Shown here one piece after another: positions 5,250 to 31,795 of a stretch of DNA of 35,026 nt (positions are counted from its first letter, which is position 1; each line of letters begins with the position of its first letter). Position numbers and translations under genes: made by a program. The stretch comes from Pelotomaculum sp. UBA3103 (GTDB lineage Bacteria > Bacillota > Desulfotomaculia > Desulfotomaculales > Pelotomaculaceae), in NCBI GenBank assembly GCA_002365855.1, contig DFAP01000065.1:1-35026 (forward strand), read 5' to 3'. The notes under the pieces were generated by a model. That model was not told the DNA's origin and searched no databases. It saw nothing but the letters and a program-made list of their open reading frames with translations.

Positions 5250-5292
5250 TATGCCCAGGTGTCTTTGTTATAAATATTATAAGTCTAGTATA

Positions 5293-5337
5293 ATACACCT
5301 TTTAAGTCTTGACCTCTTAATGGACTTGGTGTATAAA
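5293..5337 (+). promoter_or_regulatory. selD promoter inside an interrupted palindrome
   Basis: TTGACC (5309-5314) and TATAAA (5332-5337) are 17 nt apart, a good housekeeping-type promoter. The promoter is wrapped by inverted repeats: ATACACC (5293-5299) with GGTGTAT (5328-5334), and nested inside, AAGTC (5304-5308) with GACTT (5323-5327). The outer right arm overlaps the -10 box. This is what an operator for a dimeric repressor can look like, but no regulator is identified. A second TATAAT upstream (about 5289-5294) may be another start. Confidence 0.6.
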
Positions 5338-5453
5338 AAAGGAGAATCAAAGACGAAGTTCTTTGATATTTTGCATAAAAAGCATTATTATAAGTAAAGC
5401 TTAAAAATATCAGGATAATCTAATTTAGATATGTCAGGAGAAGGGGGTCAGAA

Positions 5454-6503
5454 ATGCAGAAGTTAAAGAAGAGCCGTCTAACCGAGTTTTCCAGCAGTGC
5501 CGGGTGAGCGGCAAAGATAAGTCCTCAGGACCTGGCACAGGTGCTGTGCCAGCTAACACCCGTGGAGGACCCTAACCTGCTGGTTGGTTCCTCTACCTTT
5601 GATGACGCTGCTGTTTATCGCCTGACAGGGGATATGGCTATCGTTCAGACGGTGGATTTTTTTACTCCAGTTGTTGATGATCCCTATGCATTCGGCTCGA
5701 TCACCGCAGCAAATGCCTTGAGCGATATCTATGCCATGGGCGCCAGGCCGATTTTAGCTCTCAATATCATAGCTTTTCCATGCAAGGAACTACCCCTGGA
5801 AATCCTGGTTGAAATACTCCGGGGCGGGGCCGACAAGGTGAAAGAGGCGGGAGCGCTGATGGTCGGAGGTCATACTATCGAAGACCGGGAGCCGAAGTAT
5901 GGTCTGGCTGTTACAGGCCTGGCGCATCCCGACCAGATCACAACTAATGCCGGCGCACAACCCGGCGATGTCCTAATTTTGACCAAACCTTTGGGTGTAG
6001 GCATCATCACAACCGCAATTAAGGGCCAGTTGGCAGACGATTCTGCTTACCGGGCAGCAGTTGATTTGATGGCCTCCCTGAATGACCGGGCTGCCAGGGC
6101 TATGTCCGAAGTGGGAGTTCATGCCTGTACGGATGTTACCGGCTTTGGTCTGCTTGGCCATCTTTACGAGATGGCGTCAGCCAGTGGAGTAAGCGCGAGG
6201 ATCCACCTGGAAAAAGTTCCGGTACTGGCACAGGCCCGCCCTCTGGCTGAGATGGGCATGATTCCCGCGGGAGCGTATAGAAATCTAGAACACCTGGCTC
6301 AAAGAGTCCAGTGGGAAAATGAGATTGAAGAATTGGACAAATTGCTCCTGGCGGACCCTCAAACTTCGGGAGGCCTGTTAATTGCTGTGTCTGAAGAAAA
6401 GGCTGCGTCTCTTCTTGAAGCCATGCGTAAAGAGGGTGTAGACGCTACAGGGATTGGAGAAATGTTTGAATCTGAAGAGACCATGATTAATGTTTTCAGG
6501 TAA
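5454..6503 (+). CDS. selD: Selenide, water dikinase SelD, a selenoprotein (TGA at 5505-5507 read as Sec)
   Basis: Makes selenophosphate from selenide and ATP, the selenium donor for Sec-tRNA. From the ATG at 5454, behind AGGAGAAGGGGG (5436-5447), the frame reads to residue 17, meets TGA (5505-5507) as codon 18, and continues without another stop to 6503 (349 aa). Around the TGA the protein reads SSSAGUAAKISP, matching the family's glycine-rich catalytic loop, with Sec at the catalytic Cys site and the essential Lys three residues on (Lys21). The body carries VDFFTPVVDDPYAFG, AANALSDIYAMGA, VGGHTIEDREPKYGL and DPQTSGGLL, all typical of SelD. The hairpin at 5532-5552 fits a bacterial SECIS. Autonomous gene with its own promoter, lying between ftsZ and spoIIGA. 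A call starting at 5541 would lack the active site. Confidence 0.93.
5532..5552 (+). promoter_or_regulatory. Predicted bacterial SECIS hairpin in selD
   Basis: CTGGCACA (5532-5539) and TGTGCCAG (5545-5552) form a perfect 8-bp stem with a 5-nt loop GGTGC. It lies within the coding region 24 nt after the in-frame TGA. Known bacterial SECIS elements are short stems at roughly 16-37 nt from the UGA with a G among the first loop bases, and this fits. The element would recruit SelB with Sec-tRNA. Confidence 0.8.
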
Positions 6504-6540
6504 AATCCATCAGGCAACATATTACGAAGAGAACATAACT

Positions 6541-6572
6541 GGGACTGGCTCGTGCCGGTCCCGATGTTTTAT
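6541..6572 (+). terminator. Terminator after selD
   Basis: GGGACTGGC (6541-6549) pairs with GCCGGTCCC (6554-6562), 9 bp with one G-T wobble and a 4-nt loop, followed by GATGTTTTATT. It sits between convergent selD and the minus-strand gene ending at 6569. Confidence 0.7.
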
Positions 6573-19613: not shown

Positions 19614-19782
19614 ACCCGCATGAAATTCTCCTTTCACAGCCAGCAGGTCAAAATGAACTATCATAAAGCAGACCAGGTAGGTTTACTTTTAAATCAAGAG
19701 GATGTCTTTTTTGATGAACAAAAAAGAGGGTTTCTTGGCGCGGGGATGAATTATTTTTAAAAATGGCTGCAGGAGGATGATA

Positions 19783-21348
19783 ATGCGCTTACAATTTTTA
19801 GGGGCTGCCGGTATTGTGACCGGTTCCTGTTTTTTGCTTGACACGAAAAATTCACGGTTAATGATAGAATGTGGTATGTACCAGGGTCAGAGAGAAATAC
19901 GAGAGCACAATTACGGCAATTTTTCAGTGCCGCCGCGGAGTGTGGATCATGTTTTGCTGACGCACGCTCATATAGACCACAGCGGTTTAATACCGAAACT
20001 GGTAAAGCACGGTTTTAATGGCTCCATATATACCACGCCTCCCACTTTTGAGCTTTGTGAAGTGTTGCTCCCTGACAGCGGATATATCCAGGAAATGGAG
20101 GTCGAAAGAAAGAACCGCAAGAACCGCCGTGCCGGCAAGAGTCCCATTGAACCGATCTATTCAGTTGATGATGCTTATAAGAGCCTATCCTATTTCAAAA
20201 CCATCGGGTATGATGAAATTATAGAAATTACACCGGATATAAGTGCACGTTTTGTTGATGCAGGCCATATACTTGGCTCGGCTATGATCGAGCTCTGGGT
20301 TAAGGAAAACGGCTCCCAGGTCAAGCTGGTTTTTACTGGGGACATGGGCAATCTTGACCGGCCTTTAGTTAAAAACCCATCGGTCATTGCTGAAGCGGAT
20401 TACCTGATTATGGAGTCTACTTACGGCGATGAGCTGCATAGCCAGGAAGTTAATGAAATTGAGCTGTTGCATGACGTGATCTGGGAAACATATAAAAAAG
20501 GCGGCAACCTAGTTATTCCTGCTTTCGCGGTCGAGCGCACCCAGGACCTGCTGTACCACTTATATTTGTTGATGGAGGGCAAGAGAATGCCTCCCATGTC
20601 AATATTCATTGACAGTCCTCTGGCTACGGCTGCTACCGCAATCTTTTGGAAAAACAGGGAATTTTTTGACCGGGAAGCTACTGATATAGTCAATAGGGGC
20701 GAAAACCCTATCCAGATGCCGGGTATGAAATTTACCCGGTCAGCGGATGAATCCAAATCTTTGAATAAAATAGACAGGGCCATCATTATTTCAGCCAGCG
20801 GTATGTGTGAGGCCGGACGGATCAGGCACCATCTCAAATACAACCTGTGGCGGCCTGAAAGCACGGTTCTATTTGTCGGTTATCAGGCTGACGGCAGCCT
20901 TGGCAGGCAGATCCTGGACGGCGCAAAATCTGTTCGCATTTTTGGCGACGAGATTGCAGTGAAAGCTGATATAAGATGTATCGACGGCTATTCTGCGCAC
21001 GCTGACCAGGCTGGCCTTGTTTCATGGGTTAAGAAGTTTGATAAACCGCCCAAAGAAGTATTCCTTGTGCATGGTGAACCGGAAGCACTGAGTGCTCTCG
21101 CTGTTCTATTGAGGAATAAATTAGGGTTAAATGTTACTGTCCCAGAACTACTGCAGGCAGTGGAACTTCTTCCTGAGGGTCTGGAAGTGGAACCGGAAGA
21201 AATGCTCAAAGCTGCCTATACTTCTGTCGTGGAAAAAATGCAGAAGCTATTAGCATCAGGGGTTGAGCAGAAAGACATTGATGAAATCTTATGCCGCCTG
21301 TCTGAATTGGATAAGGCGGTAGACCGGGGGATCAGAGAACAAATATAA
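19783..21348 (+). CDS. Metallo-beta-lactamase/beta-CASP RNase family protein
   Basis: A 521-aa metallo-beta-lactamase fold enzyme with the RNA-specific beta-CASP and C-terminal metal-binding motifs. The zinc motif HAHIDHSG (about residues 61-68), the aspartate in FTGDMGN, ESTYGDELH, the glycine-rich ISASGMCEAGRIRHHL and the final GYSAHADQ and LVHGEPEA are visible. Such enzymes cut or trim RNA, like the CPSF-73/YsH1 relatives in bacteria, and differ from RNase J in architecture. Specific RNA targets are unknown. An ATG at 19777 overlaps AGGAGG (19771-19776), so ATG 19783 is used. It is followed after 16 nt by pgeF. Confidence 0.9.
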   Translation: MRLQFLGAAGIVTGSCFLLDTKNSRLMIECGMYQGQREIREHNYGNFSVPPRSVDHVLLTHAHIDHSGLIPKLVKHGFNGSIYTTPPTFELCEVLLPDSGYIQEMEVERKNRKNRRAGKSPIEPIYSVDDAYKSLSYFKTIGYDEIIEITPDISARFVDAGHILGSAMIELWVKENGSQVKLVFTGDMGNLDRPLVKNPSVIAEADYLIMESTYGDELHSQEVNEIELLHDVIWETYKKGGNLVIPAFAVERTQDLLYHLYLLMEGKRMPPMSIFIDSPLATAATAIFWKNREFFDREATDIVNRGENPIQMPGMKFTRSADESKSLNKIDRAIIISASGMCEAGRIRHHLKYNLWRPESTVLFVGYQADGSLGRQILDGAKSVRIFGDEIAVKADIRCIDGYSAHADQAGLVSWVKKFDKPPKEVFLVHGEPEALSALAVLLRNKLGLNVTVPELLQAVELLPEGLEVEPEEMLKAAYTSVVEKMQKLLASGVEQKDIDEILCRLSELDKAVDRGIREQI

Positions 21349-28656: not shown

Positions 28657-28679
28657 ATTGCGTGTCAGCGCATATCAAA

Positions 28680-28942
28680 TGCCAATGAGCGGGAAGAGTA
28701 GATGTTAAACCTGTTTAGAGAACCCGGGACGGTGGAAGCCGGGTGGGGTAAGCGTTGAAAATCACCCGGGAGGCGCCAGCTGAAACCCATACGGGAATTA
28801 AGCTGTGCCGGCTAGCTGCCCGTTATACGGCTTTATTGAGTGGTTGGCTCTGGTTATACATATTTTTTTAAACCGGCCGGCAGTTTGGGTGGTACCGCGG
28901 GTTATTCATCCCGTCCCTTAAGGGGCGGGATATGTTTTTTTC
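28680..28942 (+). promoter_or_regulatory. T-box riboswitch, isoleucine specifier AUC
   Basis: Leader RNA that reads uncharged tRNA-Ile and controls ileS by antitermination. The T-box sequence TGGGTGGTACCGCGG is at 28886-28900; its UGGU pairs with the ACCA end of tRNA-Ile. Stem I shows AGAGAA and GGTG elements (about 28717-28732), and the specifier ATC at 28761-28763 (in GAAAATCACCC) followed by GGAG. The terminator ATCCCGTCCC / GGGGCGGGAT (28908-28931) is followed by ATGTTTTTTT. The AUC specifier agrees with the downstream gene. Boundaries are approximate. Confidence 0.93.
28908..28941 (+). terminator. T-box terminator hairpin
   Basis: ATCCCGTCCC (28908-28917) and GGGGCGGGAT (28922-28931), 10 bp with one G-T wobble around TTAA, then ATGTTTTTTT. 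It is the OFF-state terminator of the ileS leader. Confidence 0.9.
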
Positions 28943-29011
28943 TGCCTAAAAGTTTTTTTGATAGTTGTATTAAGCAAAAGTTTATATTTTTCAGTGAGAG
29001 GTGCAAAAAAG

Positions 29012-31795
29012 ATGGACTACAGTAAAACACTGAACCTGCCCAAGACAGATTTTCCAATGCGGGCAAACCTTCCTCAGCGGGAGCCGGATTTTTTGAAATT
29101 TTGGGATGAGATTGATCTCTACCGCAAAGTTCAGAAAAAAAACAGCGGCCGCCCAAAATTTATCCTTCATGACGGCCCGCCGTTTGCCAATGGGCATATC
29201 CACCTGGGGCATGTTTTAAATAAGGTTCTCAAGGACATCGTAGTGAAGTTTCACTCCATGTCCGGGTTTGACGCCCCGTATGTGCCGGGATGGGATACTC
29301 ACGGACTGCCTATTGAGCAGCAGGTAATCAAGGCCTCCGGTCTCAAACGCCATGAAATTGACACGAGGGTATTTAGAAACAGATGCAGGGACTTTGCCCT
29401 GGAATATGTGGACATTCAGCGCGAAGAGTTCAAGAGGCTGGGTGTGCGTGGTGAATGGGGTAAGCCTTACCTGACGCTTATGCCCGGCTTTGAGGCCCGC
29501 CAGATCGGCGTTTTTGGCGAAATGGCGAAGAAGGGCTTTATTTACAAGGGTTTAAAACCAGTTTACTGGTGTGCCGCCTGCGAAACCGCTCTGGCCGAGG
29601 CTGAAGTCGAATACGGCGATAAGCATTCCGCATCGATCTACGTAAGGTTCCCTGTTATGAACGGCAAAGGAATATTGCCTGAAAAGGATACTTACGTAGT
29701 TATCTGGACCACTACTCCATGGACCCTCCCTGCCAACGTTGCTGTTTCGCTTCACCCGGAATTTGAATACGCTCTGGTTCAGGTAAATTCAGAAAAATAT
29801 TTAGTAGCAGAAGATTTAAAAGAACAATTCCTGGAGACTATGGGCTTGAAGGGAGCCGAAACTGTAAAGAAATATCGGGGAGCTGAACTTGATCGAGTGG
29901 AATTAAGACACCCCTTTGCAGATAGAATTTCTCTGATAATTCTAGGTGATCATGTTACCCTTGAGCAGGGTACAGGCTGCGTACACACTGCACCTGGTCA
30001 CGGCATGGAAGACTTCATTGTCGGAAAACAGTATAATCTTCCTGTTATATCTCCTGTGGATGGTAAAGGACGCTTTACCGATGAGGGGGGTATTTTTGCA
30101 GGTCAGTTTTATCTGGATGCGGACAAAGCAGTGATTGAAGAGCTGGGGCGCAGGGGGCATTTAATGAAGCATGATACAATCCTGCACCAGTATCCACATT
30201 GCTGGCGATGCAAGAAGACGATTTTTTTCAGGGCAACCGAGCAGTGGTTCGCTTCTATTGATGGTTTTCGCCAGGCTGCTTTAGACGCTATTAGAAAAGT
30301 TCGCTGGATCCCCGGATGGGGTGAGGAGCGCATCTACAATATGGTGGCCAACCGGGGTGACTGGTGCATATCCCGTCAGCGGAGCTGGGGCGTGCCTATT
30401 CCCATATTTTATTGCGGCGAATGCGGCAAGGTACTGATCAACGATAATACGGTAGGCCACCTCCAGGAGCTTTTCAGGGAACACGGCTCAGACATTTGGT
30501 TTGCCCGTGAAGCCGCCGACCTGCTCCCCGTTGGTGTTAAATGCCCTCATTGCGATACAGGGCGGTTCACCAAAGAAACAGATATTATGGATGTTTGGTT
30601 TGATTCCGGCACCAGTCATTTAGGAGTGCTGGATGAACCGGGCTCATGGCCGGACCTGAGCTGGCCGGCGGACCTTTACTTGGAGGGAAGCGACCAGCAC
30701 CGGGGCTGGTTTAACTCCTCGCTCTCCACGTCAGTGGCTGTAAACGGTCAGGCGCCTTACCGAGCGGTGTTGACTCATGGCTTTGTGGTCGATGAACAGG
30801 GCCGCAAAATGTCTAAATCACTTGGAAATGTGGTAGACCCCGTCAAGGTCATCAGGCAGATGGGCGCCGATATTTTACGACTGTGGGTTAGTTCTGCGGA
30901 TTACCGGTCTGATCTTGCGGCATCACCTAATATTCTCAAACAGATGACCGAGGCCTACCGGAAAATTAGGAATACCTGCCGCTTTCTGCTGGGCAACCTG
31001 TATGACTTTGATCCTACCAAAGACATGGTTCGGTACGACCAGCTTTCAGAAATTGACAGGTGGGCCCTGGTAAAGCTGCAGAAACTGATTCAGAAGGTAG
31101 CCTGCGGGTACCGTGATTACGAATATCACGTGGTGTATCACACTATTTATGGCTTCTGTGCTGTAGACATGAGCTCCCTTTATCTCGATATCATTAAGGA
31201 TAGGCTTTACACTGCCCCTGCAGGATCTATTCAAAGGCGTTCGGCTCAAACTGTCCTGTATGAGGTACTGTCTGCATTAGTCCGTCTGCTTGTCCCCATT
31301 CTTGCGTTTACCACTGAGGAAGTCTGGCGTCATATGCCTGGTGATAAGGGAGATGCAGTAAGTGTTCAGCTTACAGAAATGCCTGAAGTAAATGAAGATT
31401 ACCTGGACGAGGAACTTGACAGGAAGTGGGAGCGCATCCTGGCAGTGCGCGGAGAGGTAACCAGGGTGCTGGAGGCTGCGCGCAGGGATAAAGTTATTGG
31501 TAATTCCCTCGAGGCAGCAGTTGAACTGTATGCCGGCAAAGAACTGCGAACTTTCCTCGACCCCCTTAACGACGAACTGGCTGTCATCTTTATAGTATCG
31601 GAAGTCAACCTGAAAGACATTGGCTCAGCGACGTTAGACGCGGTGAGGGTGGACTCCGTACCTGAGCTGGCGGTATCAGTGCATCCTGCCAGGGGTAAAA
31701 AGTGTGAGCGCTGCTGGATGTACCACGAGGAAACAGGATTGGACGCAGAAAACCCAACTGTTTGCCCCAAATGTGCCGCTGCCTTAAAGGGATAA
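29012..31795 (+). CDS. ileS: Isoleucyl-tRNA synthetase
   Basis: Charges tRNA-Ile; class I aminoacyl-tRNA synthetase with editing domain. The 927-aa product has the HIGH-type signature GHIHLGH (61-67), KMSKS (599-603) in [10 protein letters not shown], the CP1 editing domain between, and C-terminal zinc ligands in CERCWMY and CPKCA. The frame is open from 28958, but ATG 29012 lies after GAGAGGTG and gives the normal [20 protein letters not shown] start. Regulated by the T-box leader. Followed by a terminator, then vanZ on the other strand and lspA. Confidence 0.98.

Follow-up and report, generated by a model that had tools for sequence, protein, structure and literature searches.

Bacterial SelD (selenide, water dikinase) proteins with selenocysteine (Sec) in the active site have been described before, and the self-dependence of SelD is already discussed in print, in the part of the literature on which we draw here (PMC1794560). 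The same partial literature, a review in this case, includes a description of selC* tRNA-Cys species, some of which have an opal anticodon (PMC7609411). In this study we compare with these systems a selD gene of Pelotomaculum sp. UBA3103 (assembly GCA_002365855.1). The gene lies in a stretch of 35,026 nucleotides (contig DFAP01000065.1, positions 1 to 35,026 of the forward strand), hereafter called the window, in which ftsZ is followed by selD and then by the spoIIGA-sigE-sigG genes. Two further features of the window were recorded. A 523-aa beta-CASP metallo-beta-lactamase protein is encoded at 19777-21348 (plus strand); its best model is the type VII CRISPR protein Cas14 (433.7 bits, below the cut-off of 800), and it scores 319.1 bits against archaeal aCPSF1, below the cut-off of 580.2. 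A T-box leader (28676-28921, plus strand; 107.6 bits) precedes ileS (28958-31795).

An initial annotation, made from the sequence alone, had proposed that a frame of 320 codons extends upstream, through a single TGA, to an ATG. This was verified in the sequence: on the plus strand the selD frame runs from ATG 5454 to a stop ending at 6503, is interrupted once, by the TGA at 5505-5507, and has its upstream limit at an in-frame TAA at 5421. The mechanical ORF lister reported for selD only GTG 5541-6503 (320 aa); the predicted truncation by automated annotation was thus seen, with that lister only. A ribosome-binding site is present before ATG 5454 on the plus strand (5436-5447, with AGGAG at 5436-5440 and GGGGG at 5443-5447), which we rate as plausible, rather than as excellent as first claimed. 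On the same strand, a sigma-70-like promoter match (TTGTTA-18-TATAAT, 5265-5294) and a terminator-like hairpin 3' of selD (6540-6563) are consensus matches only, the region having 7 promoter-like sites of that kind versus 1.8 expected from shuffles and 7 terminator-like hairpins versus 1.4 expected. No conserved selD leader was seen by eye among the upstream regions of our genome and nine family relatives. Folding predicts a hairpin in the leader (window 5293-5334, plus strand), which was not seen by eye in the nine family upstream regions.

Read through with Sec as residue 18, the product has 349 aa and is a full-length SelD. It scored 421.5 bits against the NCBIfam model TIGR00476 (SelD), above the curated cut-off of 125, and the match starts at residue 8, i.e., ahead of the UGA. 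Residues 7-339 align with a solved selenide, water dikinase, 3u0o_A (E 9.8e-81), in which a Cys is opposite Sec18 and a Lys opposite Lys21, in the N-terminal loop, at +3. We take 3u0o_A to be the E. coli SelD, and the aligned residues to be its C17 and K20. The peptide around the TGA, SSSAGUAAKISP when read with Sec and including Lys21, had been assigned to the SelD active-site loop with the Lys three residues past the Sec, and the 3u0o_A alignment agrees. A scan of the genome contigs with the SelD protein gave seven loci with 50–56% identity.

SelD was found above the cut-off in 57 of 60 genomes, our own included. The UGA occupies the active-site position in 30/30 loci inspected, 29 of which were placed by alignment offset and the thirtieth, L032 with its N-terminal insertion, by eye and by motif. 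Homologues starting downstream of 5541 without an active-site Cys or Sec, a check suggested by the initial annotation, were not encountered among the 30 loci, all of which keep the TGA. In larger samples, we counted rows by hand among the matches with E of 1e-60 or lower; where the TGA lies was established at sequence level for the 30 loci only. The class sample comprised 113 genomes, 107 with SelD, and exactly one TGA was present in 122 of 124 SelD rows, that is, in 122/122 rows covering the N-terminus; the two rows without TGA (G111, which starts at model position 20, and G039:C37, from position 92) both miss the N-terminus. In the phylum sample (199 genomes, overlapping the class sample by our genome and five others), 136 genomes had SelD, and one TGA was present in 144 of 150 rows, or 144/147 of those covering the N-terminus: three rows (G180, G218 and G115:C13) cover the N-terminus yet have no TGA, and the three others without TGA (G113, G261:C255 and G219) do not reach it. 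On these counts, Sec-SelD appears to be the rule among the sampled SelD-bearing relatives, nearly all of which would have it. Two SelD rows were found in 17 of the 107 SelD-bearing genomes of the class sample; in 15 of them both SelD are near full length with one TGA each, and in G039 and G087 the second rows are partial. As regards the gene neighbourhood, FtsZ is encoded in the flanks (about 1.5 kb or less) of 9/30 loci, SpoIIGA in those of 8/30 and both in six; one or both flank selD in 11/11 loci of our own family versus 0/19 from other families.

In the model of the bacterial SECIS, a G occupies the first positions of the loop. The hairpin found shortly after the selD UGA (5532-5552, plus strand) satisfies this rule, and is present as had been claimed: its arms (5532-5539 and 5545-5552) form eight Watson-Crick pairs around the G-starting loop GGTGC and start 24 nt after the TGA. 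Folding adds one G-C pair, giving nine pairs around GTG. GTG 5541 falls within the hairpin loop. The folding energy of the 61-nt stretch is unremarkable (z -1.17; 26 of 200 shuffles equal or better). To estimate the chance rate, we searched both strands of the window for a perfect 8-bp stem with a loop of 3-8 nt and an apical loop starting 15-37 nt 3' of a TGA: 8 of 1175 TGA trinucleotides were followed by such a stem, six of these having a G among the first two loop bases. With 6/1175 TGA satisfying the rule and an unexceptional folding energy, the hairpin by itself carries little weight, and we rejected it as a stand-alone proof.

Conservation of the hairpin was assessed in 30 SelD loci including our own (29 distinct rows), chosen as the 30 best-scoring matches rather than at random. 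In the 9-pair stem, 90.0% of the cells are paired versus 81.9% in shuffles, the covariation score is 0.298 versus 0.150, and 25 stem cells versus 11.1 are altered on both sides; none of 500 shuffles reached any of these three values, which are to be read with the coding nature of the region in mind, since the protein accounts for part of the conservation and relatedness is retained in the shuffles. When the 3' arm was slid by 1-3 columns, the paired fraction dropped to 19.5–53.6%. Two other measures were less clear: pairs changed on both sides (4 versus 2.4, reached by 32/500 shuffles) and further pair types (10 versus 8.5, reached by 53/500). The outermost pair is absent in 14/29 rows. By eye, no stem remains in L041 and L045 and that of L037 is partly broken, the UGA being retained in all three. 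Conservation with compensatory changes in this alignment places the SECIS-like hairpin above chance.

The assembly examined (2.38 Mb, 148 contigs, 87.3% complete) contains the machinery for Sec insertion. Profile matches located selA (C100:37049-38425, 626.4 bits) and the adjoining selB (C100:38468-40354, 394.1 bits), and a canonical tRNA-Sec of 98 nt was found at C142:1425-1522 (68.8 bits); the absence of selA, selB and selC, which the initial annotation had named as an argument against its proposal, is thus not observed. The profile search found no second selB above the cut-off in this genome, and the tRNA-Sec model gave 16 rows, 14 of them below the cut-off. Two formate-dehydrogenase-type genes also carry a UGA, in the motifs ARLUHAPTVAGL (C128; 896.5 bits, above the family cut-off) and ARLUHSSTVAGL (C32; a piecewise match below the cut-off), presumably where formate dehydrogenases normally carry their Sec.

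Taken together, the homology of the read-through product to full-length SelD, a UGA at the catalytic position, a hairpin conserved among relatives and a genome equipped with selA, selB and tRNA-Sec support the reading that selD is a selenoprotein gene, as the initial annotation had it. We put at roughly 97% the probability that UGA 5505 is decoded as Sec18 with the help of the hairpin and SelB. A ribosome would start at ATG 5454 and meet the UGA at 5505, where SelB, carrying GTP and Sec-tRNA-Sec and docked on the hairpin 5532-5552, would insert Sec as residue 18. The 349-aa SelD would convert selenide and ATP to selenophosphate, from which SelA would produce the Sec-tRNA-Sec needed by SelD itself and by other selenoproteins, e.g., formate dehydrogenases. 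We infer these decoding steps and the catalysis from the established bacterial Sec pathway. The circular dependence noted at the outset, SelD being needed for its own Sec, is real in logic, and no SelD row covering the N-terminus lacks a TGA in the class sample. SelA is able to use thiophosphate, yielding Cys-tRNA-Sec. For experiments on how SelD gets going in the absence of Sec, bacteria of this kind are well suited.

Outside the window, the genome encodes a second tRNA with a UCA anticodon (G000:C78:2883-2972, minus strand, L017; 90 nt), which scored 48.4 bits (gathering score 47) and folds with an 8-bp acceptor stem, a long variable arm and a T stem with one bulged base. We fetched 20 second-hit places of relatives, hand-picked from the table and not amounting to a census. 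A GCA anticodon, the same odd fold and U73 were present in 17 of the 20 (16 called tRNA-Cys by ARAGORN; that of G036 was read by eye), and a UCA anticodon in three (G002, G013 and G019), all of our own family; the 16 fetched loci from other families all have GCA. In G036, the GCA tRNA lies directly 3' of a Sec-type selD (C47, L085, 536-1735). For a model we took 18 of the 21 tRNAs, omitting three from the 20 relatives, and ran it over 25 family genomes. The UCA form was found in nine (G000, G002, G004, G012, G013, G014, G017, G019 and G021) and the GCA form in one (G010); in the other 15 this search found only the canonical tRNA-Sec or nothing. A candidate in G020 (C250) resembles, by eye, a canonical tRNA-Sec and was left uncounted. 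Base 73 of the UCA form is G in our genome and A in the eight family relatives, U73, the mark of selC*, being absent. G73 is held essential for tRNA-Sec in the part of PMC5330540 considered here, and is present in our copy; A73 in the eight relatives argues against their being tRNA-Sec, as the missing U73 does against charging with Cys.

In eight of the ten family loci, this tRNA lies between matches of the Sec-assisted organometallic (SAO) cluster, the operon of which is described in the part of PMC13188914 used here. The SAO names come from NCBIfam matches, each above its cut-off, of seven G004 proteins and one G014 protein. The tRNA follows saoC and precedes saoX in L129 (G004), L087 (G002), L089 (G013), L092 (G019), L131 (G014), L133 (G021), L132 (G012) and L090 (G010), with a UCA anticodon in seven and GCA in G010; in G012 only pieces of the cluster remain. 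Beside the tRNA of our own genome only a SaoD-like piece is left, and in G017 no SAO match was found within the stretch fetched around the tRNA. The C-terminal end of saoC is Cys-Cys in 7/7 copies inspected. The second UCA tRNA appears to derive from a selC*-like tRNA-Cys. Nothing else that we found is unusual, and we see no link between this tRNA and the decoding of selD. That it is needed for selD is unsupported, the UCA form being present in 8 of the 22 SelD-bearing family genomes, of which the assemblies are partly incomplete.

Several other readings of selD were weighed. The true start might be GTG 5541, as chosen by the mechanical lister, the upstream frame being chance or non-coding. 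Such a protein would lack the active-site loop and Lys21; the family match begins before the UGA, the same loop around the UGA is kept in 30/30 loci and GTG 5541 sits inside the hairpin loop, and we regard this start as extremely unlikely. A decaying selD, or a Cys codon turned into TGA by faulty sequencing or assembly, could be imagined, the window being drawn from an assembly broken into 148 contigs; however, the recurrence of one TGA in 122/122 class rows and 144/147 phylum rows covering the N-terminus, together with a gene body open across 320 codons, leaves a practically negligible probability for decay or error.

The tRNA at C78:2883-2972 raises the question of whether it is the main reader of the UGA, inserting an ordinary amino acid there. 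We hold this for highly improbable: the SECIS-like stem is conserved, the UCA form was undetected in 14 of the 22 SelD-bearing family genomes, the tRNA is without U73, a Cys identity mark, and we would expect Ser or Leu at this site to make a poor enzyme. It is also conceivable, if very unlikely, that the genome reads UGA with two tRNAs: the tRNA-Sec and an opal tRNA of selC*-type tRNA-Cys descent in which both Cys identity marks are lost. When selenium is short, the latter might carry a fraction of ribosomes past the selD UGA, or else it might be an opal decoder tied to the SAO cluster around it in relatives. If this were true, a lineage without a detected Cys-SelD could restart its own selenium pathway via another residue at the selD UGA. 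We retain the reading in which the UGA of selD encodes Sec18.

Comparison with known systems places both genes. In the part of the review PMC7609411 on which we rely, selC* tRNA-Cys and the minor 8/4 tRNA-Sec (Mukai 2017, cited therein) share with the second tRNA the 8-bp acceptor stem, the long variable arm and the bulged T stem, and its opal anticodon is as in some selC* tRNA-Cys. The bulged T-stem base, in contrast, is C in our copy versus A in that review, base 73 is G or A and not U, within the family the gene sits in the SAO cluster, and our genome yielded no second selB above the cut-off. The Cys-containing SelD 3u0o_A is homologous over residues 7-339, with a Lys opposite Lys21, but has a Cys at the active-site position and hence does without recoding. 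The closest likeness is to the Sec-containing bacterial SelD, which, in the parts of PMC4561486, PMC1794560 and PMC13188914 considered here, are of the same family with the same Sec position, likewise have a hairpin shortly 3' of the UGA and likewise need SelA, SelB and tRNA-Sec, with nothing different in kind. The arrangement is already known and ordinary, and the gene in the window is one more Sec-SelD.
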